Source: an uncultured Nitrospiraceae bacterium
GTDB lineage: Bacteria; Nitrospirota; Thermodesulfovibrionia; Thermodesulfovibrionales; Dissulfurispiraceae
Reading direction: 5' to 3'
DNA: 48,602 nucleotides
Assembly (NCBI GenBank): GCA_903822005.1
Contig: CAIJNL010000042.1
Span: forward strand, 1 to 48,602
Positions 12,938-41,977 of the stretch are shown piece by piece. Each line of letters opens with the position of its first letter. The stretch's first letter is position 1. The notes beneath the pieces are model-generated. The model was given only the letters and a program-made list of their open reading frames with translations. It was not told where the DNA came from and ran no database searches. The translations under genes and the position numbers were made by a program.

Positions 12938-12954
12938 CTACTGAAAATCTTGAT
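12938..12954 (+). repeat. Direct repeat, right copy, flanking the toxin-antitoxin module
   Basis: Second copy of CTACTGAAAATCTTGAT, 26 bp after the toxin stop. See the left copy at 12294-12310. Confidence 0.6.
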
Positions 12955-13837: not shown

Positions 13838-14108
13838 TCTTTTTTCCTCCTGTTATAGACTTTGCCGTTTTTTTAAACTGAGAATAACAAGCCCCTGACA
13901 TCCTATCTTTCTCAGTCCACAAGATAATTTTAACTATTTTAAATTATTTTTCAAGTCCGCCTTTCCGCCGTCGCGCCACGGCAGAACTTCTCCGCAGGAA
14001 AAAATAGGGGACTGCTGTTAAGTTTGCCTATTACTTGTTGAAATTGTTCTTGCCGGCATGTCATTATGTTTCCTGAATGATGCATTTTTTGTTGCGGAGG
14101 TGATGCGC

Positions 14109-15974
14109 ATGAACCGGTACCCCATACTTTTCGTTGTTCCCGCCGACCCGATGATGGATACCGTAAAGAATATCCTGAAAGAAGAAAATATAGATATCTC
14201 TGTTGCGCAGAGCGTCCTGCATGGCGATGTGGATATCGTAAGGGAATATATCGAAAAGGGGGTGGAGGTTGTCATCTCGCGTGCCGGTACCCTTCGCGCC
14301 CTTGAGGCGGCAAACATCAGCATTGCCATGGTAGAGCTGACCATTACCGGGTTTGACCTTATCGATGCCATCGAAAAAGCGAGGATACATGGAAGCCGGA
14401 TCGCTGTAGTCGCTTTCCAGTCTATGGTGCTGGGCATAGACTATGTCGCAAAGAGCCTCGGTGTTGACATCGGATATTTTTTCATAAAAGGGCGTGAAGA
14501 GATCCCGTCGGCAGTCGCGTCGGCCGCAGCACAGGGTTACGAGGTAGTGCTGGGCGGACCGGCGACTGCCGCGGCTGCGCGGGCGCACAATCTGCCGAGC
14601 GTGCTGATCGGCAGCAGCAAGGCATCGATACTGCAGGCGGTATTTGAGGCGGTAAGGGTGGCGCGTGCCATCGAAAACGAAAAATACAAGCGTGAGCTCT
14701 TTTCGGCCGTTGTTGATTATGCCAACGACGGGATCATCACTGTTGACACGGCCGGGATTATCTCGACTATCAATCCCCGGGCCGCACAGATAACCGGTTT
14801 CAGGAAGGCCATTGGCAACGATATCGATACTGTCTGGCCCGACCTCAAACTGACCAATGTGATAAAGAACAGGGAACAGCACCTTGGCCAGATAATGGCG
14901 ATAAATGGAAGACAGGTTTTCTGCAACAAGGTGCCGATAATCGTGAATAACAGGCCGGTGGGTGCTGTAGCCAATTTCCAGGAGATCACGAGGATACAGC
15001 AGTTAGAGGCCGCCATCCGCCGCAAGATTTATTCCAAGGGCCATGTGGCGAGGTTCTCGTTCAGCGATATATGGGGCACGAGCGCCGCAATCCAGAAGGT
15101 GATCAGGATCGCGAAGGATTATGCCGCGACCGAATCCAACATACTTGTAACGGGCGCGACCGGGACCGGCAAGGAGGTCTTCACCCAGTCCATGCATAAC
15201 TTCAGCCGCAGGAAAAATGGCCCTTTTGTCGCGGTAAACTGCGCCGCGCTTCCAGGACAGATACTCGAAAGTGAATTGTTCGGATATGTCAAAGGCGCAT
15301 TCACGGGAGCGAGCGAACAGGGCAAGCCGGGGCTTTTTGAACTGGCCCATGGCGGTACGATTTTCCTGGATGAGATCACCGAGCTGGATTACGCAAACCA
15401 GGGACGGCTGCTGCGCGTGCTGCAGGAGAAGGTCGTTGTAAGGCTTGGCAGCGACACGGTCACCCCCGTTGATGTGAGGATCATTGCCGCTACCAACAGG
15501 GACCTTGGACAGGCGGTCGAGGAAAAAAAATTCCGCGACGATCTCTTCTATAGACTTAATGTGCTGAAGCTGCACGTACCCACTCTGCGGGAACGCAAGG
15601 CCGACATCAGGGACTACGCGAACAAATTCCTTGCGCGGCACACTCCGCCGGGCGGTCGACCAATGTCCTTTCGTCCCGGGGCCCTCAGGCTGCTCGAAAA
15701 GTTCGACTGGCCGGGCAACATCCGGCAGCTCCAGAATACGATCGAGAGAGTCGCCGTATTGTGCAAGGAGCCCGTGATAAGCGAATCGATCATAGCGCAA
15801 TGCCTCGATATCCCTGACAGGAAGGCAGAACGGCATAATATACTGTCCAGGGAAATTGATGAGATACGGCAGGCGCTTGCAACGGCAAAGGGCAGGCAGA
15901 GCGGGGCCGCAAAGTTGCTCGGCATCAACCGCTCAACATTGTGGAGAAAGATGCAGAGGCTGGGCATGCCCTAG
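14109..15974 (+). CDS. Sigma-54-dependent activator with PrpR-type sensor domain
   Basis: 621 residues from ATG 14109, chosen because GGAGGTGAT (14095-14104) is a perfect ribosome site; an earlier ATG at 14058 lacks one. Domains: PrpR N-terminal sensor (about 5-190), PAS (195-300), AAA+ ATPase (320-545) with Walker A GATGTGKE (349-356), the sigma-54 contact motif GAFTGA (396-401) and Walker B FLDE (419-422), and a Fis-type helix-turn-helix (580-621). PrpR-type sensors bind small acids such as 2-methylcitrate. Placed between citDEFC and citXG, it probably senses citrate or a relative and drives the -24/-12 promoter at 6125. Confidence 0.9.
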   Translation: MNRYPILFVVPADPMMDTVKNILKEENIDISVAQSVLHGDVDIVREYIEKGVEVVISRAGTLRALEAANISIAMVELTITGFDLIDAIEKARIHGSRIAVVAFQSMVLGIDYVAKSLGVDIGYFFIKGREEIPSAVASAAAQGYEVVLGGPATAAAARAHNLPSVLIGSSKASILQAVFEAVRVARAIENEKYKRELFSAVVDYANDGIITVDTAGIISTINPRAAQITGFRKAIGNDIDTVWPDLKLTNVIKNREQHLGQIMAINGRQVFCNKVPIIVNNRPVGAVANFQEITRIQQLEAAIRRKIYSKGHVARFSFSDIWGTSAAIQKVIRIAKDYAATESNILVTGATGTGKEVFTQSMHNFSRRKNGPFVAVNCAALPGQILESELFGYVKGAFTGASEQGKPGLFELAHGGTIFLDEITELDYANQGRLLRVLQEKVVVRLGSDTVTPVDVRIIAATNRDLGQAVEEKKFRDDLFYRLNVLKLHVPTLRERKADIRDYANKFLARHTPPGGRPMSFRPGALRLLEKFDWPGNIRQLQNTIERVAVLCKEPVISESIIAQCLDIPDRKAERHNILSREIDEIRQALATAKGRQSGAAKLLGINRSTLWRKMQRLGMP

Positions 15975-23929: not shown

Positions 23930-24075
23930 GGAACGCTTCTAGGGAGGGGCAGAAGGTCCACCCCGTTAGAGATCGAAACTGCGTCAGCACTAATAATCTC
24001 TAACGGGGTAAGCGGCTATGATGAGATAAGCCGGGTCGGCAAGGGGGAAAGACCTTTGTAGGCCCGGCTTTTTTT
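23930..24075 (+). ncRNA. Candidate structured RNA / attenuator upstream of the ORF6N gene
   Basis: A 13-bp perfect inverted repeat, CCCCGTTAGAGAT (23961-23973) with ATCTCTAACGGGG (23996-24008), closes a 22-nt loop. CTTCT (23936-23940) and AGAAG (23951-23955) form a small hairpin just before it, and GGGG at 23946-23949 could instead capture the CCCC of the long stem, an alternative fold. A terminator follows at once. No known RNA class was recognised. The 5' end is a guess. Confidence 0.45.
24028..24075 (+). terminator. Rho-independent terminator ending the structured region
   Basis: AAGCCGGG (24028-24035) pairs with CCCGGCTT (24063-24070); an inner GGTC/GACC pairing extends the stem, and seven T follow (24069-24075). 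It ends 48 nt before the ORF6N start codon, so transcription from upstream would have to pass it. Confidence 0.7.
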
Positions 24076-24123
24076 GTGGGCGTTTAAGGAGCTATTTTGG
24101 CATGTTTATGGAAAGGAGAACAG

Positions 24124-24645
24124 ATGAAAGCACTAGTTACGGTTGAGATTATAGAGCGTAAGATTTATCTGATACGCGGACAGAAAGTCATGCTCGATAG
24201 CGATCTTGCTGAAATGTATGATGTTCCTACAAAAGTACTGCTTCAGGCAGTTAAGCGCAATCCGAATCGTTTCCCTGACGACTTTATGATTCAGCTTAAT
24301 TATCAAGATCTTGCAGCTTTAAGGTCACAAATTGTGACCTTAAAGACAGGGCGTGGCGAGCATAGAAAGTATGAGCCCTATGTCTTTACTGAAAACGGGG
24401 TTGCCATGCTTTCCAGTGTGCTCAACAGTGAAAGGGCCATTGAGGTTAATATCCAGATTATGCGGACATTTACAAAGCTTCGCCAGATGATAGCGTCTCA
24501 TAAAGACCTTGCCGGAAAACTGGCTTCACTGGAAAAGAAATACGATGCCCAGTTCAGGGTAGTCTTCGACGCCATCCGCGAACTCATGGTTCCGATAACC
24601 CCGGAAAAGAAAAGGAAGATAGGATTTCGGAGAGAACATGACTGA
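24124..24645 (+). CDS. ORF6N-domain protein
   Basis: 173 residues from ATG 24124, with AAAGGAGAA as ribosome site. The ORF6N domain covers about residues 5-95 (IIERKIYLIRGQKVMLDSDLAEMYDV, RFPDDFMIQL, YVFTENGVAMLSSVL), followed by a helical tail. ORF6N domains occur in phage antirepressors and host-encoded relatives and are presumed to bind DNA. The SQIVT codons near 24328-24344 form a long DNA palindrome. It opens the accessory island after the tRNA and may be a phage or plasmid remnant. Confidence 0.85.
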   Translation: MKALVTVEIIERKIYLIRGQKVMLDSDLAEMYDVPTKVLLQAVKRNPNRFPDDFMIQLNYQDLAALRSQIVTLKTGRGEHRKYEPYVFTENGVAMLSSVLNSERAIEVNIQIMRTFTKLRQMIASHKDLAGKLASLEKKYDAQFRVVFDAIRELMVPITPEKKRKIGFRREHD

Positions 24646-24721
24646 TTTAATCGGAAATTATAAATGAAAGAATTGGTTTCGAGTGGTTATGTGGTTCAAC
24701 TAATGCTAAATGAAAGAAAAG

Positions 24722-24744
24722 GGTGGTCACAGATTGTGACCACC
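24722..24744. promoter_or_regulatory. Palindrome shared with the ORF6N gene (possible operator)
   Basis: GGTGGTCAC (24722-24730) and GTGACCACC (24736-24744) with a 5-bp centre. The core GGTCACAGATTGTGACC differs by one base from GGTCACAAATTGTGACC inside the ORF6N gene (about 24327-24343). It lies just upstream of the HigBA-like promoter. Confidence 0.4.
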
Positions 24745-24759
24745 GAAATAGATTTGAGA

Positions 24760-24788
24760 TTGACAAAAGTTAACGTGCAGGTTAACAT
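24760..24788 (+). promoter_or_regulatory. Promoter and operator of the HigBA-like operon
   Basis: TTGACA (24760-24765) and TAACAT (24783-24788), 17 bp apart. Two GTTAAC hexamers at 24769-24774 and 24781-24786, 12 bp apart, lie across the spacer and the -10 element, a likely binding site for the helix-turn-helix antitoxin. Confidence 0.65.
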
Positions 24789-24794
24789 ACCCTT

Positions 24795-25151
24795 GTGAGC
24801 AGGACTATAGTTTTCTATAGAACTGCTGATGGTAAATGTCCTGTGCGAACGTTCCTGGATTCGTTGTCTGCAAAGGCAGCGCAAAAGGTTACTTGGGTTC
24901 TGAGCCTTCTCGAAGACATTGATATTTTGCCGGCGGTATATCTGAAAAAGATCGCTGGTACTGAGGATATCTGGGAGTGCAGAATACAGTCTGGCTCTGA
25001 TACTTACAGGATATTCTGTTTCTTCGAGGGCAGGTCGGTTGTAGTGCTTACGCACGGCATTTACAAAAAGACGCAGAAAACCCCGCGCAGAGAGATAGAG
25101 CGGGCCGAGGCTTACAGAATGGATTATCTGCAAAGGAGGACAAAACATTGA
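24795..25151 (+). CDS. HigB-type toxin (RelE superfamily, phage Gp49-like)
   Basis: 118 residues, GTG start at 24795. VFYRTADGKCPVRTFLDSLSAKAAQKV at the N-terminus and WECRIQSGSDTYRIFCFFEG followed by VVLTHGIYKKTQKTP in the second half are the Gp49-like HigB signature, with K, R and H residues placed as in active ribosome-dependent RNases. The toxin gene precedes the antitoxin, as usual for HigBA. It overlaps the antitoxin start by 4 nt. Confidence 0.85.
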   Translation: MSRTIVFYRTADGKCPVRTFLDSLSAKAAQKVTWVLSLLEDIDILPAVYLKKIAGTEDIWECRIQSGSDTYRIFCFFEGRSVVVLTHGIYKKTQKTPRREIERAEAYRMDYLQRRTKH

Positions 25152-25423
25152 GCGACCTGAAGAAATATATAAAAGAGAGAAAAACGAGGGACAAGGTTTT
25201 TGCGAAGGGATATGAAGAGGGGTATGAGCAGTTCAAGATCGGCGTGATGCTAAAACAGAGCCGCGAGTCGGCGGGTCTTACGCAGGAAGAGCTTGCCCGG
25301 CGGCTTAAAACCAAGAAGACAGCTATTTCCCGCATAGAGAACCACGCAGAAGATATCAAGCTGTCTACGCTGGAGAAAGTTGCGCATGCGCTTGGCAAGA
25401 GGCTGCAGGTGAAAATAGCCTGA
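25148..25423 (+). CDS. HigA-type antitoxin (XRE-family helix-turn-helix)
   Basis: 91 residues, TTG start at 25148 with AAAGGAGG upstream. The helix-turn-helix spans about residues 40-75 (ESAGLTQEELARRLKTKKTA, ISRIENHAEDIKLSTLEKVA). The N-terminal basic/helical extension (about 1-35) contacts the toxin in such pairs. Translationally coupled to the toxin (TTGA overlap). It probably represses the operon through the paired GTTAAC sites. Confidence 0.85.
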   Translation: MSDLKKYIKERKTRDKVFAKGYEEGYEQFKIGVMLKQSRESAGLTQEELARRLKTKKTAISRIENHAEDIKLSTLEKVAHALGKRLQVKIA

Positions 25424-25457
25424 GTGCGTGGCTTTTTAAAGCATTTAAAAGCAAGAA

Positions 25458-26383
25458 TAGGGGTCAGGTCTTGCAATAGCACATTTAAGAATGATACGAT
25501 AATCCAATGGCTAGACCAATAAGAATTGAGTATTCTGGGGCATTGTATCACATTACATCGAGAGGTAATGCGCGGCAGGATATATTTATTGATGATAATG
25601 ATTATCTGGAATTTATGGATGTGCTTTGTCTGGTAGTCAAACGTTATAACTGGTTGCTCCATGCGTACTGTTTGATGGGAAATCACTATCATCTTCTCAT
25701 AGAAACACCGGACGGTAATCTATCGGCAGGCATGCGGCAGCTTAATGGAATTTATACGCAGCGATTCAATCGGCAGAATCAGAGAGTCGGCCATTTAATG
25801 CAGGGCAGATTCAAAGCAATACTTGTCGACAAGGATTCGTATTTAGGCGAGTTGAGCAGGTATATTGTGTTAAACCCTGTCAGGGCAGGAATGAAGAATA
25901 GGCCAGAGCAGTGGAAATGGAGCAGTTATAACAAGACAGTCGGGTTTGCCGCAGGAAGCGACTGCTTGACAACAGAGTGGCTGTTGAGATTGTTCGGTAA
26001 GAACAGGAAGACTGCACAAGAGAAATATAAGGAGTTTGTCAGAGCGGGAATAGGAAAAGACGGTCCGTGGGACAGGCTTGTCGGGCAGGTTTTACTGGGC
26101 AGTGAAGAGTTTATTGAAAAAATGAGAATACATCTTGAAGAAAAAGAGGATATAGAGGAAATACCCAGGACACAGCGGGTATCAGCCCGGCCGAAACTCG
26201 AGCAAATATTAGCGAATAAAAAGGAAAAAGCGGAAGCAGCTTATGATGCACATGTAAAATATGGGTACAGGCTTAAAGAAATAGGGAAAGTATTAGGGGT
26301 GCATTATGCCACAGTAAGTAGACTGGTCAGAGCTATTGAAGGCAGGAATTAGTGATATATGTTATTGCAAGACCTGACCCCTA
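25458..26383 (+). mobile_element. REP-associated tyrosine transposase (RAYT) element with 21-bp inverted ends
   Basis: A perfect 21-bp inverted repeat, 25458-25478 and 26363-26383 (core GGGGTCAGGTCTTGCAA), brackets the transposase gene with 28 bp on the left and 10 bp on the right. No target duplication is seen, as expected for single-strand HUH transposition. A diverged solo left end lies at 27711-27745. Confidence 0.8.
25507..26352 (+). CDS. REP-associated tyrosine transposase (HUH, Y1 type)
   Basis: 281 residues. Y1 transposase domain (about 1-150): MARPIRIEYSGALYHITSRG start, the HUH motif in LMGNHYHLLIE (residues 57-67), a Gln-rich helix with candidate catalytic Tyr84 (QLNGIYTQRFNR), and LSRYIVLNPVRAGM. 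The C-terminal extension ends with a helix-turn-helix (KEIGKVLGVHYATVSRLVRA, about 257-276). Such enzymes move or spread REP sequences. The gene is intact and lies inside its own inverted repeats. Confidence 0.9.
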   Translation: MARPIRIEYSGALYHITSRGNARQDIFIDDNDYLEFMDVLCLVVKRYNWLLHAYCLMGNHYHLLIETPDGNLSAGMRQLNGIYTQRFNRQNQRVGHLMQGRFKAILVDKDSYLGELSRYIVLNPVRAGMKNRPEQWKWSSYNKTVGFAAGSDCLTTEWLLRLFGKNRKTAQEKYKEFVRAGIGKDGPWDRLVGQVLLGSEEFIEKMRIHLEEKEDIEEIPRTQRVSARPKLEQILANKKEKAEAAYDAHVKYGYRLKEIGKVLGVHYATVSRLVRAIEGRN

Positions 26384-26552
26384 GTTTTCCTTAGAATAGT
26401 TGCATTCAGGGCAAATCGTTAAATGGGGCATTAAGTTTCAATATGCGCATTATTCAGAAGTCACAACTTGTAGCTTGTTCTTAAATTAAGCATACTATTA
26501 TATATCCGGTGCCGACTTAAAGGGTGTCTAATCTAAGTGGGAGGGATTATTG

Positions 26553-27638
26553 ATGCCGACAAATGCTGAGTTGCTTAAAACACTTAGAGAACGTTTCTTG
26601 CGCGGTGATATATTAGAAGAAGAGTATAAAGCAATCAGGGCAGGTCTTTTAGGCGAAATGCCATTTCTTTATTTCGATCCAGAGTATGTTGATAATGATC
26701 GTTGCAGAAAAGATGAGATTATAATAGAGGCTGAGGAGTGTGCTGACAGTATAGGCGATTGGACTGCTTGTGCATTTAAATGGGAGGAACTGGGCGAAAA
26801 GCGCGAGGTGCGCAGATGCATGAAGATGGCTGAGGAGAGGGCTGAAAACCCAAAAGATTGGACTGACTGTGCATTTACATGGAAGGAACTGGACGAAGAG
26901 CGAGAGGTGCGCAGGTGCATGGGGATGGCTGAGGAGTGTGCTGACAGTATAGGTGATTGGACTGACTGTGCATCTACATGGAAGGAACTGGGCGAAGAGC
27001 AAGAGGTGAGCAGATGCATAAGGATGGCTGAGGAGAAGTCTGAAAACTCAAAAGATTGGACTATTTGCGCATCTCACTGGAAGGAACTGGGAAAAGAGCA
27101 AGAGGCACGCAGGTGCATTGGGATGATGGCTGAGGAGAAGGCTGAAAACTCAAAAGATTGGGCTATCTGCGCATCTCACTGGAAGGAACTGGGAAAAGAG
27201 CAGGAGGCGCGCAGATGCATGGGGATGGCTGAGGAGAAGGCTGAAAACTCAAAAAATTGGGCCGACTGTGCATTTACATGGAAGGAACTGGGAGAAGAGC
27301 AGGAGGCACGCAGATGCATGGGGATGGCTGAGGAGCGGGCTGAAAACTCAAAAAATTGGAGTAGTTGTGCATTTGGGTGGAGCCAGATAGGGGAGGAGCA
27401 GGAGTTTCGGAGATGTCTATGGATAGCTGAGGAGAAGGCTGAAAACACAAGCGATTGGATTCGTTGCGCAATTTGGTGGGATGGGCGAGATGAGCAGAAG
27501 GCGCGCAGGTGTATGGGGATGGCCGAGGAGAAGGCTGAAAACTCAAAAGAGTGGACTATCTGCGCATCTCAATGGAAAGAACTAGGCGAAAAACAGGAGG
27601 CGAACAGGTGTGAGAAAAAAGCAAAAACATTTACGTAG
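26553..27638 (+). CDS. Protein of nine 33-residue W/C helical repeats with SHOCT-like N-terminus
   Basis: 361 residues from ATG 26553, with GGGAGGG upstream. Residues 5-34 (LLKTLRERFLRGDILEEEYK) resemble a SHOCT oligomerisation motif. Residues 60-356 are nine near-identical units of about 33 residues: AEEKAENSKDW, xxCAxxWKELG, xEQEARRCMGM. Each unit predicts two helices with conserved W, C, A, W, L, R, C, like TPR or Sel1 solenoids but not fitting either consensus well. Unit 4 has one extra residue, unit 8 one fewer. About two cysteines per unit and no signal peptide suggest a cytoplasmic, possibly metal- or thiol-bearing scaffold. No function recognised. Confidence 0.75.
   Translation: MPTNAELLKTLRERFLRGDILEEEYKAIRAGLLGEMPFLYFDPEYVDNDRCRKDEIIIEAEECADSIGDWTACAFKWEELGEKREVRRCMKMAEERAENPKDWTDCAFTWKELDEEREVRRCMGMAEECADSIGDWTDCASTWKELGEEQEVSRCIRMAEEKSENSKDWTICASHWKELGKEQEARRCIGMMAEEKAENSKDWAICASHWKELGKEQEARRCMGMAEEKAENSKNWADCAFTWKELGEEQEARRCMGMAEERAENSKNWSSCAFGWSQIGEEQEFRRCLWIAEEKAENTSDWIRCAIWWDGRDEQKARRCMGMAEEKAENSKEWTICASQWKELGEKQEANRCEKKAKTFT
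26730..27620 (+). repeat. Nine tandem 99-bp coding repeats
   Basis: Units start at GCTGAGGAG and are 99 bp long (102 in unit 4, 96 in unit 8). Neighbouring units are strikingly similar as DNA, which indicates recent slippage or recombination and predicts copy-number variation between strains. Confidence 0.85.
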
Positions 27639-27710
27639 AAAATAATATAGCAGTTCTGTCCTAAGTACACAATCCCGAAGGAGAAAACTGCCAGCACATC
27701 AGGCACATCA

Positions 27711-27745
27711 GGGTCAGGCTTGCAAGTATGCATTTATCAGATATA
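27711..27745 (+). repeat. Solo remnant of the RAYT element left end
   Basis: GGGTCAGG-CTTGCAA followed by a GCATTTA-like stretch aligns with 25461-25495, the left end and adjacent sequence of the RAYT element, with one deleted base and several substitutions. Confidence 0.5.
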
Positions 27746-27793
27746 AGCCCATAGCCGCTTGACATCAGTATAACTCTTGGTCATGCTATTGGT

Positions 27794-28048
27794 ATGAAAA
27801 CGGCAATATCCGTACCGGATGAGATATTCAGGGAAGTCGATGAATTTGCAAAAAAGCAAAACTGTTCCCGCAGCGAAGTTTTTGTTCTTGCAGTTGCCGA
27901 GTTTTTCGAAAGGCGAAAGGCCTGGAAATTACTGAGGGATCTAAATGCGGTTTATACCGAAGTCAGCCCCGAAACCAAGGATGACCTGCTGCTGCGCCGG
28001 AAGGGCATGAGACATTTTGCCAAAAAGGTAAACAAAGAGACTTATTAG
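27794..28048 (+). CDS. MazE-like ribbon-helix-helix antitoxin
   Basis: 84 residues. AISVPDEIFREVDEFAKKQNCSRSEVFVLAVAEFF (about 3-37) is a ribbon-helix-helix; the tail would bind the toxin. No ribosome site precedes ATG 27794; TTGACA at 27759-27764 with a weak -10 near 27784 would put the transcript start about at the ATG, so translation may be leaderless. Overlaps the toxin start by one base. Confidence 0.8.
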   Translation: MKTAISVPDEIFREVDEFAKKQNCSRSEVFVLAVAEFFERRKAWKLLRDLNAVYTEVSPETKDDLLLRRKGMRHFAKKVNKETY

Positions 28049-28362
28049 TGGACAGGATAAGGCAGGGCGATGTTTACTGGGTAGATTTTGGAGAGCCCGC
28101 AGGTTCTGAACCCGCTTTTCTCCGGCCATGCGTAGTTGTCTGCGCTATTTCTTCAAACCTGAAGCTTGAGGCCTCGCCCGGAAATGTCCTGCTGAAAAAA
28201 GGCGAGGCAAAACTGCCAAAGGACAGCATAGTAAATATAACGCAGATGATAACTGTTGATAAGGCATGTCTTGAGGAGAAGATCGGTTCCTTGTCTCATG
28301 TGAAGCTTATGAAGGTACTTGACGGGGTAGATCTGCTTTTAAGGCCGACGAGGCTGGCATAA
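28048..28362 (+). CDS. MazF/PemK-type toxin (mRNA interferase)
   Basis: 104 residues, GTG start. RQGDVYWVDFGEPAGSEPAF and RPCVVVCAIS at the N-terminus, GNVLLKKGEAKLPKDSIVNI in the middle and the LMKVLDGVDLLL end match the MazF fold; the conserved G-D-(V/I)-x-W and Arg near residue 27 are present. MazF enzymes cleave single-stranded RNA at short sites. Coupled to the antitoxin gene. Confidence 0.88.
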   Translation: MDRIRQGDVYWVDFGEPAGSEPAFLRPCVVVCAISSNLKLEASPGNVLLKKGEAKLPKDSIVNITQMITVDKACLEEKIGSLSHVKLMKVLDGVDLLLRPTRLA

Positions 28363-28468
28363 GTGTGCCTGGAAGTCTGAAGGCAGGCCTGAAGATGTGA
28401 AAATACGATAGATAAATTTTAATTTACCGCATACCATTTAACCACTGACCCGCAGCAGGCGTTTGACG

Positions 28469-28500
28469 CATACACCTGAATATGATAATATTGGTGTATG
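28469..28500 (+). promoter_or_regulatory. Operator dyad over the VapBC promoter
   Basis: CATACACC (28469-28476) and GGTGTATG (28493-28500) form a perfect 8-bp inverted repeat with a 16-bp spacer containing TATGATAAT, the -10 region; TTGACG at 28463-28468 is the -35 candidate. VapB dimers binding the two arms would block transcription. Confidence 0.65.
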
Positions 28501-28515
28501 GCTTAGGAGGTGCAT

Positions 28516-28716
28516 ATGTCAAGAACGAATATAGAGATCGATGATAAGCTCGTCAGGGAAGGGTTCAGCCTCACAAAACTTAACACTAAAAAAGAGCTGG
28601 TTAATCTTGCGCTTGAAGAGCTGGTAAAAAAGCTTAAGAGAAGGAAGATCCTGGGGTTTGAAGGCAAGATCAAATGGGAGGGCGACCTTGAGGAATCGAG
28701 GCTCGGCAGGGTGTGA
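28516..28716 (+). CDS. vapB: VapB-type antitoxin
   Basis: 66 residues from ATG 28516, preceded by TTAGGAGG; the in-frame GTG at 28510 lies too close to that site. SRTNIEIDDKLVREGFSLTK and TKKELVNLALEELVKKLKRRK match the VapB/MazE-like (type II, VapB family) ribbon-helix-helix. The C-terminal FEGKIKWEGDLEESR would occupy the VapC groove. The toxin gene overlaps by 4 nt. Confidence 0.85.
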   Translation: MSRTNIEIDDKLVREGFSLTKLNTKKELVNLALEELVKKLKRRKILGFEGKIKWEGDLEESRLGRV

Positions 28717-29117
28717 TTCTCGCAGATACAAGCGTATGGATCGACTTTCTTGAGGGGAAGGGAACGCCTCAGCATCTGGAACTTCGGCGGCTTATTGAGA
28801 ATGATGAAGATATTTGCCTTACCGGTATTGTGGTAACCGAGATTCTCCAGGGGATAAAGGACGACGGCCAAAACAGAGAGATAAGGCGTTATCTTCTCGA
28901 ATTCCCGATTATTAACCCGCAGGAAATTTCTTCATATATACACGCAGCCGAAATCTACCGCACATGTGCAAGTAAGGGGAAGACAGTCAGGAAGACAATT
29001 GATTGCCTTATTGCCGCAGTAGCCTTGGAGCATGACCTCGTACTTTTTCATAATGACAGGGATTTTGAGAATATCAGGGCATGCTGCAGGCTTAAGACGC
29101 TGGACCTGATGAAGTAA
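28713..29117 (+). CDS. vapC: VapC toxin, PIN-domain ribonuclease
   Basis: 134 residues, GTG start overlapping the vapB stop. PIN acidic residues are visible: D5 in ILADTSVWIDFL, E43 in VVTEILQGI, D97 in RKTIDCLIAAVAL and D115 in HNDRDFENI, so the Mg2+ site is intact. VapC enzymes cut tRNA or rRNA. The gene ends 14 bp from the convergent hydE stop and marks the right edge of the accessory island. Confidence 0.9.
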   Translation: MILADTSVWIDFLEGKGTPQHLELRRLIENDEDICLTGIVVTEILQGIKDDGQNREIRRYLLEFPIINPQEISSYIHAAEIYRTCASKGKTVRKTIDCLIAAVALEHDLVLFHNDRDFENIRACCRLKTLDLMK

Positions 29118-29131
29118 CAATAAACATGCTA

Positions 29132-30577
29132 TCAGGGTTGGCTGTTACTCTCTGAAATCCTTCCCAGTTCATCAATCACCTTCTGCAACCCTTCCGCAGA
29201 AGTAATAAGGCACCTCCAAGCCTCTCCGCCAAAAGCATCCGCCTGCTTATCTATCCATTGCAAAAATAGGGACGGTTCTCCGAAGACCTCGATACCCTTC
29301 ATCATGGCGAGTTTAAAGCGTATCCTGTAAGCCCGTTTTGCTTCATCCGGGACTTTTTGCTCGATTACAGTAAGCTCCATATTCATTTTAGTAGCGAAGT
29401 CTTCGCACTGCTTATATTTTTCTGTTTCAACGAGTGCGGCAATATCCTGCCCCAGCCCGATCTCTTTGTTCATGGCCACAACATCAGCAATATCCTGCAT
29501 GATCTCCAGTTTTCTGTTAATTACTGTTTTTGCCATAGATCGGACAGCAGCCTTTTTGCGATAGCCATAGCCCTGCGACACGCTGCGGCCGATGTCTTCG
29601 ATTTTGGCAGTGACGCAGCTCCTGCAATGGGCCGGCGTATCGCCAACGCATATCTTGCCCGGATAGAGCGCGTACAGCCTGCGGTAATCACCCTCTGTCA
29701 CATTGGGCATGATAACATTGGCCCCGCTCTGGAGCCCCAGCATCCTGCCGTTCTCATTCAGCGCTTCCATGGCAGTAGTGGCAGGTATGTTAATGTCCGG
29801 CATCAGCAGGCGCGTAATGGCCATGACCTTTAAACTCAGCTCAAACGTGCCGCCAGTTGCATCACCCAGCGGTGTGTCCGAGTTTGGAATAAATGGCCCA
29901 ACGCCTATCATATCTGCACCAAGCTCTTTAAAAAAAAGTATGTCATCAGCAAGTGATTCCATTGTCTGGCCTGGCAGGCCGACCAGACAGCCGGTGCCAA
30001 GTTCGTACCCAAGTTCCTTCAGATCATGCAGGCAGCGCACCCGGTTCTCAAAGATCATGCCGGGGCTCATCTTCTCATACAGTTTTTTATCAGTCGTCTC
30101 GATCCGCAGCAGATAACGGTCAGCCCCTGCATCACGATATGCCTGGTACTCTTCACGTGTTTTTTCACCAATGCTTAGCGTTATCGCAACATCGAGCGCC
30201 TTGATGGATTTGATTATCTGCAGCATCTCTTCACGCGAATAGAATTCACCTTCACCTGCCTGCAATACTACTGTCTTGTATCCGTCGCTAGCTGCCTTTG
30301 AGGCAAATTCGATTATAGTCTCTGGTTCAAGGCGATAGCGTTCAAGTTTGACATTGTCCTGGCGCAAGCCGCAGTAGAGGCAGTTCTGGGAACAGCAGTT
30401 GGTAAACTCGATCAGGCCGCGGAGATGGACTTCGTCGCCGACAAATTGCTTCCTCACCCGGTCAGCTGCCGCAAACAGTTCAGCATCATGCTCATCAGTC
30501 TTCAGCAGCTCAACAATCTCTTGCCTTGTAAGGTCGTGTTTTGTCTCGGCTTTTTTGATGATATCAATAACCGCCAT
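29132..30577 (-). CDS. hydE: [FeFe]-hydrogenase maturase HydE (radical SAM) with C-terminal extension
   Basis: 481 residues. Radical SAM cluster C62-x3-C66-x2-C69 (CCSQNCLYCGLR) and the optional second cluster C310-x7-C318-x2-C321 are as in HydE. HydE acts on the HydG-made Fe(CO)2(CN)cysteine synthon while the H-cluster di-iron unit is built. Characterised HydE proteins have about 350 residues; here residues from about 355 on (some 125) form an extra, mainly helical domain I do not recognise. It starts 1 bp after the hydF stop, last in the hydG-aspA-hydF-hydE operon. Confidence 0.93.
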   Translation of the reverse strand: MAVIDIIKKAETKHDLTRQEIVELLKTDEHDAELFAAADRVRKQFVGDEVHLRGLIEFTNCCSQNCLYCGLRQDNVKLERYRLEPETIIEFASKAASDGYKTVVLQAGEGEFYSREEMLQIIKSIKALDVAITLSIGEKTREEYQAYRDAGADRYLLRIETTDKKLYEKMSPGMIFENRVRCLHDLKELGYELGTGCLVGLPGQTMESLADDILFFKELGADMIGVGPFIPNSDTPLGDATGGTFELSLKVMAITRLLMPDINIPATTAMEALNENGRMLGLQSGANVIMPNVTEGDYRRLYALYPGKICVGDTPAHCRSCVTAKIEDIGRSVSQGYGYRKKAAVRSMAKTVINRKLEIMQDIADVVAMNKEIGLGQDIAALVETEKYKQCEDFATKMNMELTVIEQKVPDEAKRAYRIRFKLAMMKGIEVFGEPSLFLQWIDKQADAFGGEAWRCLITSAEGLQKVIDELGRISESNSQP

Positions 30578-30578
30578 A

Positions 30579-31826
30579 TTACTTTTTCTTCATCGCTTCG
30601 CGGCCTGCCCGATAAACTTCAAGGGCAGCAGGGAAGGGCTCGAGCGCCCGCTCAAATATGCCGAGGCTGTATGCAATGGCAAGCCCGTAGTTGGTTATGG
30701 GCACGCCCAGTTCATTGCACTTCCGTATGCGGTTGGACATCTCGCGGCGGTTCATGGTGCAGGCTCCGCAATGGATCACGAGCTTAAAGGTAGTCAGGTC
30801 TTCAGGGAAGTCATGGCCCTGGTAATGGACGAAATCGAGTTTACCGCCAACATATTGCGTAAGCCAGCGCGGTATCTTTACCCTGCCTATGTCTTCGCCA
30901 ATGGGATGGTGCGTGCAGGCCTCGGCAATGAGAACACGGTCCCCGGTCTTCAGCTTCTCAACAGCCATCGCGCCTTCGACCTGTTTGACCAGGTCACCTT
31001 TGTATCTCGCAAAGAGGATCGAGAAACTGGTGAGAGGGATATTTTTCGGAACGTCTGCAGTCACTTTAAGGAATGCCTGCGAGTCGGTTATGACGAGCTT
31101 TGGCGGCACCTTCAGGCGGTCGAGAGCTGACCGCAGTTCGCGTTCCTTTACGACCATGCAGAAAGAGTCGCTGTCAAGGAGATCGCGGATCGTCTGCACC
31201 TGCGGCAGGATCAAACGCCCCTTTGGCGCTTCCTTGTCAATGGGAACCACGAGGATCGCCATCTCGCCCGGGCCTACAAGGTCACCCGCTATTGCTGGCG
31301 GCTCCAGGCATTCAGGCGGAACACTTGCAAGCATGGCCTGGCGCAATGCATCAAGGCCTGTGCCGGTCAAAGCGGAAACCGGAACAGTCAGACTGCGGTA
31401 TTGCTCAGGCACGAACGCGGGCTCGTCGCCCGGTGCCGCAGTATCCGATTTGTTGATTACGATGACAACCGGTATGCTCCTGCTCGAAACCTCTTCAGCA
31501 AGCTGATCTTCATACTCGCCCCATATGCCTGGCTCTGTAACGAGCACAGCAATATCAGTACGGTCAAAGACCTGCCGGGTCTTTTCGATCCGCAGACCGC
31601 CGAGTGCGCCGATATCATCGATGCCGGCTGTATCAATAAATACAATCGGGCCGAGGGGCTGAAGCTCCATGGGCTTCTCGACCGGATCAGTGGTTGTGCC
31701 CGCAACGTCAGAGACAATCGAGACCTGCTGTTTTGTGAGCGCGTTCAAAAGGCTCGATTTGCCTACATTGCGGCGGCCAAAGATGCCGATGTGGATCCGT
31801 AGTCCTTTGGGGGCTGGCTGCATCAT
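30579..31826 (-). CDS. hydF: [FeFe]-hydrogenase maturase HydF (GTPase scaffold)
   Basis: 415 residues. N-terminal GTPase: P-loop GRRNVGKSS (17-25), DTAG (65-68) and NKSD (125-128). The dimerisation domain follows, then the C-terminal cluster domain with C304-x-H306 and H352-C353-x2-C356, the CxH...HCxxC ligand motif. HydF carries the di-iron precursor and hands it to the hydrogenase apoprotein. All ligands are present. Adjacent to hydE and aspA. Confidence 0.95.
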   Translation of the reverse strand: MMQPAPKGLRIHIGIFGRRNVGKSSLLNALTKQQVSIVSDVAGTTTDPVEKPMELQPLGPIVFIDTAGIDDIGALGGLRIEKTRQVFDRTDIAVLVTEPGIWGEYEDQLAEEVSSRSIPVVIVINKSDTAAPGDEPAFVPEQYRSLTVPVSALTGTGLDALRQAMLASVPPECLEPPAIAGDLVGPGEMAILVVPIDKEAPKGRLILPQVQTIRDLLDSDSFCMVVKERELRSALDRLKVPPKLVITDSQAFLKVTADVPKNIPLTSFSILFARYKGDLVKQVEGAMAVEKLKTGDRVLIAEACTHHPIGEDIGRVKIPRWLTQYVGGKLDFVHYQGHDFPEDLTTFKLVIHCGACTMNRREMSNRIRKCNELGVPITNYGLAIAYSLGIFERALEPFPAALEVYRAGREAMKKK

Positions 31827-31867
31827 ATATTAAACTCCTGACAGGTGAAGGATTATAAAACGATTTG

Positions 31868-33274
31868 TTAATGCCCGAGCTTGCTTACAGCTTCAGGGCT
31901 GATCGCAGCGTCAAATTGTTCGGCAGTCATCCATTTGTTTGTGGTCACGATCTCTCGCAGAGTCTTTCCCTCTGCCGCAGCCAGTTTCAGGGCCTCGCAG
32001 GCTTTTTCGTATCCGATGACGGGCAGCAGAGCGGTCGCGGTTGCGGTCGATGTCTCGATATGCATGGCGCAGCGTTTCTCATCCGCCTCGATCCCATTTA
32101 TGCAGAACTCGCGGAAGATGCGGCAGCTCCGCTCCATCAGCTCAAGGCCCTCAAGCATGCAGACCGCAATCAGCGGCATAAAGGGATTCAATTCGAGTGT
32201 GCCAGAAGCGCAGGCCAGCGAGAGCGTGGATTCGTAACCGTAGACCATCATGGCTGCCTGGCCTACTGCCTCTGGTATAACAGGATTCACCTTGCCCGGC
32301 ATGATCGAAGACCCCTGTTGGCGCGCTGGCAGTCTGATCTCTCCAAGTCCTGCGTCAGGCCCGGATGAGAGGAGACGGATATCATTGCTCACCTTCCAGA
32401 GCGATGCTGCCAAAGCCTTGACCATTCCCATGACCTCTACAAAGACATCCGCATTCTGGGTCGCCTCAACAAGATTTTCTGCGCGGGCAAATCCAATACC
32501 TGTAAGTTCGCGCAGCTTTTCGACTGCACGGAAGATATATTCACGTTCAGCCGCAAGCCCCGTGCCTACCGCCGTGCCGCCAAGATTAACTACACGCAGC
32601 CGCTCCTCGCACTTGAAGAGACGCCAGCGGTCGCGGTTGAATGCCTCCGCATACGCAGACATCTCACGGCCGAGGGTGATCAGCACAGCATCCTGCATCT
32701 CGGTGCGTCCCACTTTTACCACATGGGCCATGCGCTTTTCAGCGGACTGGAACGATTCCTGCAGCTTCACTACCTCTTCTTCGAGCCGGCGTATCCCGCG
32801 GATGGCAGCAAGGCGCAGTGCGGTCGGGTAGGTGTCGTTTGTGGACTGGTTCAGGTTCAGGTCATTTATCGGAGAGACAGTGTCGTAGCTGCCGTGCGGC
32901 TCGCCGAGAATTTCGAGCGCGCGGTTTGCGAGCACTTCGTTCACATTCATATTGGTGCTTGTGCCTGCACCGCCCTGGAGCTGGTCAACAATGACATGCT
33001 GGTCCATCAGGCCTTCGGACATCTCGCGGCAGGCCTTTATTATGGCAGCCGCTTTTTCAGGAGATTCCTTCCATGCGCCGAGGTCCGCGTTGGTCGACGT
33101 GCTCGCCCATTTGACCGTGCCGTATGCCCTGATGAGTGAAGCAGGCACAGGCCTGCCTGTGAGCGGGAAGTTCTCGACTGCACGCAGGGTATGGATGCCA
33201 TGCAGCGCAGCGGAGGGCAGTTCACGTTCGCCGAGAAAGTCATGCTCTTTCCTTGTTGATGTCTTGTCAGCCAT
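31868..33274 (-). CDS. aspA: Aspartate ammonia-lyase, in the hyd maturation operon
   Basis: 468 residues of the fumarase/aspartase superfamily. The signature GSSIMPGKVNP (about 322-332), GGAGTSTNMNVNEVLANRA and NQSTNDTYPTALR are present. It converts aspartate to fumarate and ammonia. It lies between hydG (23-nt gap) and hydF (41-nt gap), so it is co-transcribed with the maturases. One inferred role is supplying ammonia for the azadithiolate nitrogen; another is simple aspartate/fumarate metabolism. The fumarase-versus-aspartase choice rests on overall similarity and is reasonably safe. Confidence 0.85.
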   Translation of the reverse strand: MADKTSTRKEHDFLGERELPSAALHGIHTLRAVENFPLTGRPVPASLIRAYGTVKWASTSTNADLGAWKESPEKAAAIIKACREMSEGLMDQHVIVDQLQGGAGTSTNMNVNEVLANRALEILGEPHGSYDTVSPINDLNLNQSTNDTYPTALRLAAIRGIRRLEEEVVKLQESFQSAEKRMAHVVKVGRTEMQDAVLITLGREMSAYAEAFNRDRWRLFKCEERLRVVNLGGTAVGTGLAAEREYIFRAVEKLRELTGIGFARAENLVEATQNADVFVEVMGMVKALAASLWKVSNDIRLLSSGPDAGLGEIRLPARQQGSSIMPGKVNPVIPEAVGQAAMMVYGYESTLSLACASGTLELNPFMPLIAVCMLEGLELMERSCRIFREFCINGIEADEKRCAMHIETSTATATALLPVIGYEKACEALKLAAAEGKTLREIVTTNKWMTAEQFDAAISPEAVSKLGH

Positions 33275-33297: not shown

Positions 33298-34704
33298 CTA
33301 TATGCAAACGTTGCGTCTGCCTTCTTTAACCTGCCTGATAAGGTCAGCAGTAAATTCCCTGTGCGAGCTGTCCATGCCCGAGAGGAGTTCTTCGACAAGT
33401 TTGCTGCCGGCAGCCTGCGTCTCGGGCGACGCGTAGTCCAACAGGTATTCCATAAACGTTGATATGGCGTTCGGGTTGCAATGCTCCTTGATATCGCCCG
33501 GTTTGGCAAGGTCCATGAAATCCTGGCCTGTGCGGCCCATGCGATAGCAGGCAGTGCAGAAGCTAGGTATAAAACCCATAGCGGCAAGGTCACGCACGAC
33601 CTCGTCCAGGCTGCGATGATCGCCGAGACAGAACTGGGCATTGGTATGGTCTTTTGATTCGTATCCGCCGGGGTCAGTGCGGCTGCCCGCAGAGATCTGG
33701 CTGATGCCGAGCTGGAGACAGTCGCGCCGTATTTCGGCATTTTCGCGCGTCGAAAGTATCATGCCTGTGTAAGGCACGGCAAGCCTGATAATGGCAATGA
33801 TCTTTTTGAAGTCCGCGTCGCTGACCGCATGGGGCGGCCTCATGGAAAGGTCGCTCCCAAGTGCGGGTTCGATGCGCGGTACGCTGATGGTGTGAGGCCC
33901 GCAGCCGAAACGGTCTTCCAGGTGTTTTGCATGCTGCATGATCGCGAGCAGCTCAAAACGCCAGTCCGCAAGCCCGAAAAGCACGCCCAGCCCGACATCG
34001 TCGATGCCTGCCTCCATTGCCCGGTCCATGCAGCCAAGCCGCCATTCGAAATCTTTCTTCTTTCCTGCCATGTGCACCTGCTCATAAGTGGGCCGGTGAT
34101 AAGTTTCCTGAAAGGTGATATAGGTGCCGATCTCGGCAGCCTTGAGGCGCCTGAAATCCTCTACCGAGAGGGGCGCTATCTCAACATTGATCCGCCTGAT
34201 CTCTCCGGGGCCCTCTTTAGTTTCATAAACAGTCCTGATGGCATTCAGGAAGTAATCGAACCCTTCGGCGGGATAGGCCTCTCCGAGCAGCATGACAATT
34301 CGCTTCTGGCCTGTGCGGATCATGGAGCGGGTCTCGGCCGCGATCTCATCGTACGAAAGAGTGCGGCGGACAAGGTCCATATTGGAGGCACGGAAGGCGC
34401 AGTAGAGACATTCGTTCTTGCAGACATTCGAGATATAGAGAGGCGCAAAGAGGACGATGCGTTTGCCGTAGATCTCTTCCTTTACCTCTTTGGCAGTATG
34501 AAAGAGTTCATCGAGAAGTGCGGGTTCTTCGACACGGATCAAAACCGCTACTTCCTCAGGCGTAAGCCCATGGAACATGCGCGCCTTTGCGAGTATTTCC
34601 TTAACACGACCGGGATCGGGCTTTGCATCCTGCAGTAGTGACTCGATACTGAGAGGTTCGAGCCAGGAGACATCATCTTTGATGCCCTGTTCCAAAGTAC
34701 TCAT
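33298..34704 (-). CDS. hydG: [FeFe]-hydrogenase maturase HydG (radical SAM tyrosine lyase)
   Basis: 468 residues, normal HydG length. Radical SAM cluster C95-x3-C99-x2-C102 (CKNECLYCAF) and the C-terminal auxiliary-cluster motif C382-x2-C385-x22-C408 are both complete. HydG cleaves tyrosine to p-cresol, CO and cyanide and forms the Fe(CO)2(CN) synthon. ThiH, its relative, lacks the C-terminal C-x2-C-x22-C motif. First gene of the minus-strand operon; AAAAGGAT upstream of the ATG is the ribosome site. Confidence 0.95.
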   Translation of the reverse strand: MSTLEQGIKDDVSWLEPLSIESLLQDAKPDPGRVKEILAKARMFHGLTPEEVAVLIRVEEPALLDELFHTAKEVKEEIYGKRIVLFAPLYISNVCKNECLYCAFRASNMDLVRRTLSYDEIAAETRSMIRTGQKRIVMLLGEAYPAEGFDYFLNAIRTVYETKEGPGEIRRINVEIAPLSVEDFRRLKAAEIGTYITFQETYHRPTYEQVHMAGKKKDFEWRLGCMDRAMEAGIDDVGLGVLFGLADWRFELLAIMQHAKHLEDRFGCGPHTISVPRIEPALGSDLSMRPPHAVSDADFKKIIAIIRLAVPYTGMILSTRENAEIRRDCLQLGISQISAGSRTDPGGYESKDHTNAQFCLGDHRSLDEVVRDLAAMGFIPSFCTACYRMGRTGQDFMDLAKPGDIKEHCNPNAISTFMEYLLDYASPETQAAGSKLVEELLSGMDSSHREFTADLIRQVKEGRRNVCI

Positions 34705-34731
34705 GACAATTGTATCCTTTTCGGGGCAGCC

Positions 34732-34746
34732 GCATAAAAAATGCCG
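34732..34746 (-). promoter_or_regulatory. Possible sigma-54 element for the hydG operon
   Basis: On the minus strand CGGCATTTTTTATGC has GG and GC exactly ten bases apart, with one mismatch in each half of the consensus. It would start transcription near 34720, leaving only about 16 nt to the hydG ATG, just enough for the ribosome site. Confidence 0.3.
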
Positions 34747-34995
34747 CAGCCGGTTTTGAATATCGGTAAATTCGCTATTCTACCTTCTAGTATCCTTATT
34801 AATATGTTATTCCCCAAAGTGGTGACCTGTCAATTTATCGGGTCACTCTATTGTGAGGGCGGTCAACATGTCCGAACATGTCTGATAGGCACGCATGCAA
34901 AGACATTTGGTATACTCAAAAGAACCTGCATTGGGCCTGCGCCGCTCACGGCCCCAGGTTTTAATCTGTCCGTATATCCGTGTCTGATGTGACAT

Positions 34996-35009
34996 ATGTG
35001 GCGCCACAT
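34996..35009. promoter_or_regulatory. 14-bp perfect palindrome, candidate activator site
   Basis: ATGTGGCGCCACAT lies about 150 bp upstream of the predicted start of the sigma-54 promoter at 35134, a usual distance for an enhancer site. A related ATGGTGGCATGTTGTGTCAT stretch follows at 35019-35038. Confidence 0.45.
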
Positions 35010-35133
35010 TAATGTGCGATGGTGGCATGTTGTGTCATATACAATTTAATGCTATTTGTATACGTCTTCGCTGTAGCCCGCATATATATTTGATTTATCA
35101 GGGAAATAATTAATGCCGGGATGGTTCAGGCCT

Positions 35134-35150
35134 TTGGCATATTTATTGCC
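35134..35150 (+). promoter_or_regulatory. Sigma-54 (-24/-12) promoter for the Stn-like operon
   Basis: TTGGCATATTTATTGCC keeps both invariant dinucleotides (GG 35136-35137, GC 35148-35149) ten bases apart. The predicted start near 35161 leaves a leader of about 60 nt to the first GTG. Confidence 0.7.
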
Positions 35151-35219
35151 AATTATAATAGGTATTTCTTGTCATTATTATGTTTAGCGCCGATCAACTG
35201 CCAATACAGGAGGAATTAA

Positions 35220-40500: not shown

Positions 40501-41054
40501 CATCCAATGGCATAACCGTTGTACAGAAGGGAAGCAACAGCCAGGGATACAGGGACATCGTATTCAGCGGAGCCCTGGGGTTCTCTTCGGCGGAGAAGCT
40601 TGCGGACATCAGAAATATAATTAAAAAAGGCGGGATAAAGGCGGTGGTGTCCCTGAACGGCGATCAGGCAATCTCTGATCTGCTGCCAAAGAAGGCTGAA
40701 TTTATAGCTGCTCTTTCGGTTTTCGAAAATTCTTTGACTGCGGCTGCCGCGGTGGTGATACCCTTTTCGCCCAATATTGAAGCCGAAGGTTCAGTCGTCT
40801 CTTTTGACGGCAGGGTCGTGAAATTCAAAAAGGCCTTCGATCCGCTGCCCGGCTTCACGACTTTTGAAGCGCTGAATATTATATTCAGGCATGCTGCCGG
40901 CAAATCATACAGTATCGATTATGTGAGAGAGCTTATTGCCGCTAAACTGCCGCGTTACAGAAGGCTCGCGGACGGCTCTGTCGATTCTTTTTCCCTTGTC
41001 GATGCGATCGCGGACAAGAGTCTTTCAGATATGAAGCAGAAGTATTATGTTTGA
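37503..41054 (+). CDS. 2Fe-2S / GltD-like flavoprotein / NuoG-like fusion (StnC type)
   Basis: 1183 residues. Order: [2Fe-2S] ferredoxin (C37, C48, C51, C65); GltD/NfnB-like part (about 95-510) with [4Fe-4S] cysteines (C101, C105, C109; C144, C148, C152, C156), FAD motif VVGGGPSG (197-204) and NAD(P) motif VVGGGNTAIDVAR (329-341); further [4Fe-4S] sets (C574-C585, C624-C634, C667-C677); then a molybdopterin-oxidoreductase-like domain with C703-x2-C706-x3-C710 and C738, running to the end. The last domain looks NuoG-like, without an obvious Mo-ligating Cys. The fusion beside NuoE- and NuoF-like genes matches the Sporomusa-type Nfn (NADH/ferredoxin:NADP oxidoreductase), so NADPH would react at the GltD part. 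Confidence 0.88.
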   Translation: MANTINIKINGKDITAEAGKTILQAARDNGFDIPAMCYEPRLDPHRSCLVCSVEEMKSKKVLISCAVPVAEGMEIETDSPPAVAARKAALELLLSNHYADCKGPCNVKCPASVDIQGYLALAGMGKYREALELVRETNPMPLMCGRVCVKYCESDCRRNYTDTPAALNFVKRYVADLEYDNLEKPAPMKKNGKRVAVVGGGPSGLTCAYFLAKKGYSITIFEAQPKLGGMVRYGIPEYRLPEKVLDKEVNFILSHGIDVETGMKLGKDFTLDDLKAKGYDAIYLAMGSWIGKPMGIAGEDSPHVQTGIRYLEDVKKSGTFPKLSGTVAVVGGGNTAIDVARTAVRCGADKVALLYRRTLDEMPADNEEIQDSMEEGIEFKILTAPKSVVTDNGKLIGLECFEMYLGEPDASGRRRPLQKENSEFLFKCDMIVSAIGQESDLSCLANKGLGEIKTTKWKTIDFDPASLSTSIPGVFAGGDIATGPMAAIDAIGAGRKAANIIDIYIATGKIISIHPEFLSSKAALETLDKASFAHIEKTERSHSMKLDPAERIKTFEEVDLGVTPEIVAHEASRCLACGCVTVNDCDLKDYSTATGASQKAYTGKFKKSDVDTAHPYIALDQNKCVLCGRCVRYCGELIGIYALGYINRGNSTLVKPSMDKPLADTPCIACGNCIEVCPTGAIEFNFPFKRQAPFKITAKRSVCSECGVGCEIDVNAMDRDIFYLTARPYEKYVEGELCKLGRFESSYLKSEGRITACSESGKGTVALEAAAGKIAAKLGEIKTKYGDNSILFVVSSSATTEEVFLASSIAAHYGSSLIASAEDLGRGEVPDLGMLTGANLSSATREDLATADVIINIGAGLAVNSPVFGFNVKRAGSRGAKFIQIGRLDTELERHVSVHLDCKTGEEGEVVEAVAKCIFGSTKFDAKAAEVTGGFADYKTAVLKSAYPLDKELAGEVADDLLDSAKNVVIIFNDTVDGMKLHDLKSAANLLGLTGRLNRASNGITVVQKGSNSQGYRDIVFSGALGFSSAEKLADIRNIIKKGGIKAVVSLNGDQAISDLLPKKAEFIAALSVFENSLTAAAAVVIPFSPNIEAEGSVVSFDGRVVKFKKAFDPLPGFTTFEALNIIFRHAAGKSYSIDYVRELIAAKLPRYRRLADGSVDSFSLVDAIADKSLSDMKQKYYV

Positions 41055-41977
41055 CACAAACGGTAACCAGTCAGAACCCGGGAGGCAGCATAGGGTGCAA
41101 TAGGCGCGATATGGTGATAGAAAACATATATCAGGTCTTCAAGAACAAAAACCTCGAAAGCGGGACTGCCCAGATCGTAACCGCATCCCGGCAGTACATA
41201 GAGGCAGAGGTGTATGCCGGGGTGATTGTGAATATTAAATCACATTCGCTTTCCTATGAAAAGATCATTGAATGCCTGCTTTCCGGGGCGGGCAATCAGA
41301 TTTCCGTAACTCCGGGGGAAGTACAACCTGAAGCTGTTCAACCCGGCACGGTCGAAAAGCTCTTCCATTTGACCACTGGGTATTCTCTGGATCCGGATGA
41401 CACCTCTCCGCCGCGGCTTCTGCAGATGCTCCGGTTGATGGAGACTTTGGCCCGGTCGGAGAATGGTTTTGCAGCGTTCGATATCATGACCGGTGAAATC
41501 GTCAGCAGATATAACAGATTTTCGCTGGAAGGTCCTGTCATCAAGAAAAGGATTGACCATTTTTCGAATGAATTTCTGATCGCTATCCCGTCCCTGAACA
41601 GCAGGCCGATGCCCGCCGACAGCCGCTGTATTCCTGGCTGGGTCTTCGAAAGTGTCGCGATCCCCGACAGCCTGTTCAAGGACATCCTGCTTTACTTTAT
41701 CTTTTTTGGAGAAATGTTCCGGCCGGTATTCAGGACCATAGTGAAGAAGGAAGCCGGATTCGGCGCAAAGGTCGGATTTGCGAGGATATCAAAGGCAGTT
41801 TACAATGCCGCAAGTAACGTCAGTGCTGCTATAATATTCAAGGGCGCAACAGAAGTGGGTTCCATGAATATCAACTGGCATGCTGAAAACAAGACCGGCG
41901 TGATGATAACACAGGCGGACCTGGACAGGCTTGGTGTAAAGGATGGAGATACCGTAAGTCTCGTGTTTACTAAATGA
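41051..41977 (+). CDS. Unknown protein coupled to the Stn-like operon
   Basis: 308 residues from TTG 41051 (overlapping the previous stop by 4 nt), or 288 from ATG 41111, which has only a weak AGGGTG site; the choice is open. I do not recognise the protein. The first 70 residues vaguely recall DUF4388-type domains. The last 30 (GVMITQADLDRLGVKDGDTV) resemble the end of the molybdopterin-dinucleotide-binding domain of MopB enzymes, which is interesting since the preceding protein has a NuoG-like domain. No signal peptide or membrane helix. Possibly an accessory subunit or sensor of the complex. Confidence 0.7.
   Translation: MTQTVTSQNPGGSIGCNRRDMVIENIYQVFKNKNLESGTAQIVTASRQYIEAEVYAGVIVNIKSHSLSYEKIIECLLSGAGNQISVTPGEVQPEAVQPGTVEKLFHLTTGYSLDPDDTSPPRLLQMLRLMETLARSENGFAAFDIMTGEIVSRYNRFSLEGPVIKKRIDHFSNEFLIAIPSLNSRPMPADSRCIPGWVFESVAIPDSLFKDILLYFIFFGEMFRPVFRTIVKKEAGFGAKVGFARISKAVYNAASNVSAAIIFKGATEVGSMNINWHAENKTGVMITQADLDRLGVKDGDTVSLVFTK

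Follow-up and report, generated by a model that had tools for sequence, protein, structure and literature searches.

The closest described systems each share a part of the arrangement reported here. The D. vulgaris sigma-54 regulome has, as here, one-component activators with their own UAS, and the targets given for them include operons for pyruvate formate-lyase, formate functions, and C4-dicarboxylate transport; its main text never uses the word hydrogenase and, unlike in D. vulgaris, the hydrogenase, Stn, fumarate reductase, fumarase, formate dehydrogenase (FDH), and pyruvate:ferredoxin oxidoreductase (POR) genes of the present genome have one common site (PMC4641369). The Rex regulon of Caldicellulosiruptor bescii, which covers hydrogenases, POR, and hydG, likewise places one regulator over [FeFe] hydrogenase and POR, but Rex is an NADH-sensing repressor, whereas the candidate here is an RpoN activator and the membership of hydG is unsupported (PMC6391272). 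The Stn complex of Sporomusa ovata is built of NuoE-, NuoF-, and GltD-NuoG-type subunits, as here; the present operon differs by an extra 308-aa gene, by its divergence from the H-cluster maturases, and by its rarity in the phylum (PMC10482914). Rex and HydS have been proposed for the bifurcating hydrogenase Hnd (PMC10084766). A survey of sigma-54 in Proteobacteria mentions NiFe hydrogenases, their maturation factors, and dicarboxylate symporters (PMC12316311); in the available text of a Clostridiales reconstruction, hydrogenase comes up solely as a domain that some activators carry (PMC6615313); and SigL promoters of the form TGGCA-N6-TTGC drive betaine genes in Sporomusa sphaeroides (PMC12456013). 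Among the matches listed from titles and abstract openings of open-licence PMC articles, none concerns a sigma-54 regulon for [FeFe] hydrogenases or their maturases. In the portions of the literature available, electron-bifurcating hydrogenases are tied to Rex or H2-sensing regulation; here RpoN control of a complete fermentation is indicated. The mechanism is already known in kind, and the target combination and the site look new within the literature searched.

The window (the whole 48,602-nucleotide stretch of Nitrospiraceae DNA that was analysed; contig C42 of the genome) contains a 515-bp region that separates hydG (minus strand, starting at 34704) from a NuoE-like gene (plus strand, GTG at 35220). 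Positions 34995-35149 of this region likely hold a sigma-54 promoter together with the enhancer that serves it; six such promoters in the genome would form a C4-dicarboxylate fermentation regulon including hydrogenase and Stn. The initial annotation had pointed to a near-perfect -24/-12 element and, upstream of it, a 14-bp palindrome. Both are present: TTGGCATATTTATTGCC at 35134-35150 on the plus strand, and ATGTGGCGCCACAT at 34996-35009, with 138 bp from the palindrome core to the TGG. The element proper, TTGGCATATTTATTGC, has its GG and GC ten bases apart in TGGCA / TTGC context, as RpoN promoters do, and is the sole exact TTGGCA-N6-TTGC in the window, which has 10 matches at up to one mismatch versus 5.8 expected. 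With an approximate sigma-54 matrix its score is 13.5 of 19.4, the second-best value in the window after an element inside aspA. ATGTGGCGCCACAT has no second match in the window within three mismatches. The region had also been described as dense in palindromes, which holds to a mild degree: it has seven perfect palindromes of at least 8 bp against a shuffle mean of 3.0, at least seven being reached in 3% of shuffles and one of at least 14 bp in 5%. Since the palindrome is only mildly unusual inside the region, the window alone would leave the question undecided; the weight of the evidence lies in the palindrome/promoter pair occurring again elsewhere in the genome.

Table 1. Features of the window, promoters of the proposed regulon (site given as contig:position), and the candidate activator
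Feature	Position	Strand	Remarks
hydE	29132-30577	-	in stretch 29132..33274
hydF	30579-31826	-	in stretch 29132..33274
aspA	31868-33274	-	in stretch 29132..33274
hydG	33298..34704	-	divergent; then aspA, hydF, hydE on the same strand
Possible hydG promoter, sigma-70-like TTGACA-18-TAACAT	34804..34833	-	match count in region at chance level
Putative 24-bp upstream activator site (TGTGGCGCCACA core, N4, TGTGC)	34995..35018	+	contains palindrome 34996-35009; genome recurrence, alignment
Putative sigma-54 -24/-12 element TTGGCATATTTATTGC	35134..35149	+	pattern search, matrix score, recurrence
StnA-like (NuoE-type) subunit, 162 aa	35220..35708	+	
StnB-like (NuoF-type) subunit, 589 aa	35722..37491	+	best PDB match 8oh5_B, 826 bits
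StnC-like GltD-NuoG fusion, 1183 aa	37503..41054	+	9bov_A 743 bits, 8oh5_C 668 bits
308-aa protein	41051..41977	+	overlaps 3' end of StnC-like gene; no Pfam/NCBIfam match
Putative regulon promoter 	C42 (window)		Stn-type transhydrogenase operon
Putative regulon promoter	C25:74065		malic enzyme-like gene first, then NuoE, NuoF-GltD, HydA, and accessory genes
Putative regulon promoter	C25:64678		frdC, frdA, frdB, then SDF and DASS-type dicarboxylate transporters
Putative regulon promoter	C11:35156		class I fumarase
Putative regulon promoter	C1:19448		formate dehydrogenase alpha, with iron-sulfur and cytochrome b subunits
Putative regulon promoter	C12:10504		pyruvate:ferredoxin oxidoreductase subunits
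Candidate activator	C25:60359-63268		four PAS stretches, sigma-54 AAA+ with GAFTGA, Fis-type HTH; beside frd promoter

Genome-wide, TGTGGCGCCACA occurs in five exact copies and five further copies at one mismatch. All five exact palindromes have a -24/-12 element 134-139 bp downstream in the same orientation, and a sixth pair, within the same range, is formed by a one-mismatch palindrome before porG; no promoter of this kind accompanies the remaining four one-mismatch copies. On the same approximate matrix the six elements score 12.45 to 16.9. The 17-mer TGGCATATTTATTGCCA before the [FeFe]-hydrogenase operon is identical to that of the window, and the hydrogenase palindrome lies 137 bp from its promoter versus 138 in the window. 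In leave-one-out scoring the 24-bp site reaches 21.7-30.7, whereas the highest score of any unrelated site in 152.6 kb is 13.2. The spacers of the six promoters, which have this site in common, are otherwise dissimilar (fum and por alone share a further 17-bp stretch), which makes it less likely that the promoters simply arose by duplication. Four of the six spacers contain IHF-like sites with 0-1 mismatches, which is weak evidence. The genome encodes RpoN, and about 29 of its enhancer-binding proteins score strongly. These common elements, their geometry and genome specificity, and the gene contents were computed directly; with one putative activator site common to six RpoN-type promoters at a near-constant distance, the set has the make-up of an enhancer-binding-protein regulon. 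At locus L148 (C2:166673), near 1501, a one-mismatch palindrome with extra GCCACA half-sites has a weak -24/-12 element (score 8.95) at 123 bp, and is a possible weak seventh member.

Apart from one pair in a congener, the combination is specific to this genome among the phylum genomes searched. A combined pattern of palindrome and -24/-12 element, with a gap of 105-135 bp, matches five times here and in none of the other 394 phylum genomes, its reversed control giving no match; the pair of a congener (150 bp, described below) falls outside this gap range. The exact palindrome alone is found in 43 of 395 genomes. Its 45 exact copies in the 41 genomes besides this one and the congener (two cut by contig ends on one side, some apparently orthologous) have no element scoring at least 12.4 within 100-200 bp on either strand. 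Set against six of six for the five exact sites here plus the congener's, 0/45 gives an exact probability of 6e-8 by label, a value to be read with the facts that the 12.4 threshold was fixed after the regulon sites were seen and that some of the 45 are likely orthologous copies. A looser pattern recovers all six sites and two others here, and 0-3 matches in each of the other 30 family genomes; the 24-bp site is absent from all the matches listed for these family genomes. The sigma-54 pattern set one base off matches four times in the genome, at none of the six regulon sites, and gives a background count.

The genes behind the six promoters, each set taken as one transcript on the basis of gene spacing, make up what we take to be a pathway that converts imported fumarate or malate into pyruvate and acetyl-CoA, its electrons leaving through fumarate reductase, H2, and formate. 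The formate dehydrogenase alpha gene consists of two open pieces around a UGA, which is read here as a selenocysteine codon. In the hydrogenase operon (locus L114), PHP-domain, HATPase, DRTGG, and PAS genes lie around nuoE and hydA (4214-5536 and 11584-13323) and may encode hydrogenase signalling partners. The initial annotation's assignment of the window operon to the Stn type is borne out: the NuoF-like subunit matches best the StnB chain of 8OH5, the S. ovata StnABC entry (PMC10482914), and the fusion matches its StnC chain. The operon has NuoE-, NuoF-, and GltD-NuoG-type subunits and no H-cluster domain; the predicted activity would be an NADPH-dependent reduction of NAD+ and ferredoxin. 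For the NuoE-like protein no match above 45% identity was found outside this genome among 31 family genomes, and the sole other Stn-type fusion at E<=1e-150 in the 395 phylum genomes is 36% identical.

The same palindrome points to a candidate regulator through a congener, G010, where a single exact copy genome-wide lies 150 bp upstream of TGGCATACTAATTGCT, before an frdCAB operon 71-87% identical to that of this genome; the TGTGC half-site is missing. The congener's palindrome is also downstream of an activator gene whose product is 71% identical to the four-PAS protein of Table 1. This arrangement connects the site with frd and, through its location, with the PAS activator. Here the protein is the sole enhancer-binding protein on C25, the contig with two of the six sites. 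An activator with a GAFTGA-bearing AAA+ domain and an HTH thus neighbours a target, and does so along with the site in two genomes, a synteny that makes it the likeliest activator of the regulon. In the other phylum genomes with matches, relatives cover the C-terminal half of the protein only (45-57% identity), and the loci of eight such distant relatives show another recognition tail and no TGTGN4CACA. A radical SAM gene (L153, 11280-12581) lies between the activator and the frd promoter here and has no match in the congener locus.

In the mechanism that these data suggest, in which activator binding, RpoN dependence, and the identity and signal of the activator are predictions from sequence, an enhancer-binding protein would bind TGTGGCGCCACA and the adjoining half-sites about 137 bp upstream of the promoter, the DNA would loop, and ATP hydrolysis would open RpoN polymerase at TTGGCA-N6-TTGC, so that the Stn-type transhydrogenase operon is transcribed. 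The same activator would drive the hydrogenase operon, frdCAB with the two transporters, fumarase, formate dehydrogenase, and pyruvate:ferredoxin oxidoreductase. These six operons would amount to a C4-dicarboxylate (fumarate/malate) fermentation that disposes of electrons as H2 and formate, and the signal might be a C4-dicarboxylate or the redox state. Since the pair recurs at five other operons with near-constant spacing, one regulator probably switches on the whole pathway. If so, a single ATP-driven activator would turn on dicarboxylate fermentation as a unit, and the proposal specifies a short DNA site, six promoters as targets, and the candidate activator by name.

It had been proposed that a different activator acts here from that of the TGCATCAATA sites (two exact copies, 6016-6046). 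The site is indeed unlike TGCATCAATA; a shared activator is more probable than one dedicated to this locus, because the same enhancer and promoter stand at five other operons. The same RpoN regulon and site might still be served by another enhancer-binding protein that recognises TGTGGCGCCACA, the PAS activator having some other target. About 28 strong candidates besides the PAS activator are encoded in the genome, and one of them, in the window (14058-15974), is of PrpR type. This reading is nevertheless unlikely, though the most serious of the alternatives, because the PAS activator is alone of its kind on C25, its G010 ortholog is likewise found next to that genome's only palindrome, and eight distant relatives with a different recognition tail are without the TGTGN4CACA motif in their loci. 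Far less credible is the palindrome as a repressor or Crp/Fnr-like operator, with the -24/-12 likeness incidental to sigma-70 promoters. A perfect TATAAT at 35155-35160, after the -12, could then serve as a -10; a TATAAT-like stretch comes after the -12 at most of the six promoters, and a Crp-family gene lies upstream of por. The GG-N8-TTGC spacing is, however, fixed in all six promoters and in G010, while the distance from the -24 to the TATAAT varies; the constant 134-139 bp suits an enhancer and not an operator; and the plus strand of the 515-bp region has no sigma-70 match, with no -35 at standard spacing for the TATAAT.

The suggestion that sigma-54 controls both the Stn-type complex and H-cluster maturation is supported for the Stn operon, which has the shared pair, and unsupported for hydG. 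The minus-strand -24/-12 candidate named for hydG, CGGCATTTTTTATGCG at 34731-34746, has its GG and GC correctly spaced and might be driven by the same enhancer acting in both directions. Co-induction of hydG with the hydrogenase would make biological sense, because the genome search yielded a single [FeFe] hydrogenase catalytic subunit (on C25, a contig other than that of the maturases). The candidate scores 6.3 of 19.4 on the approximate matrix and lies about 263 bp from the palindrome versus 134-150 bp elsewhere; at 100-200 bp from the palindrome, where a promoter is expected, the best minus-strand score is -0.1. A sigma-70-like alternative for hydG (Table 1) exists, itself at chance level. 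Given the weak score and the wrong geometry, sigma-54 control of hydG is not accepted, and a sigma-54 promoter of its own is improbable. HydG relatives are 56-65% identical in a scan of 80 of 143 loci; tblastn of the window proteins on those loci, many on short contigs, found no divergent hydG/nuoE order. Between hydG and the palindrome, ACATGTCCGAACATGTC at 34867-34887 is a repeated ACATGT pair that may be a separate operator. An Rfam search found nothing but a tRNA.

The absence of the [FeFe] hydrogenase and the Stn complex from relatives suggests that both were probably acquired laterally. A tentative reading, to which we give slightly less than an even chance, is that an old frd sigma-54 switch, whose site occurs once in the congener, was extended here to six operons, capturing hydrogenase, Stn, POR, FDH, and fumarase. 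It would illustrate, inside a single genus, a way in which hydrogen metabolism gained from outside may come under the control of a circuit already in place.

On the maturase side, HydE is 481 aa long, and the final ~50 residues are similar to an Xre/MbcA/ParS toxin-binding domain at 24.0 bits, slightly short of the 24.5-bit cut-off. A 362-aa repeat-built protein with no Pfam match is encoded at 26550-27638 on the plus strand. An IS200-type transposase (25507-26352) and a PIN-domain gene (28713-29117) lie beside hydE in 24000-29117, which suggests a mobile or toxin-antitoxin-rich neighbourhood.
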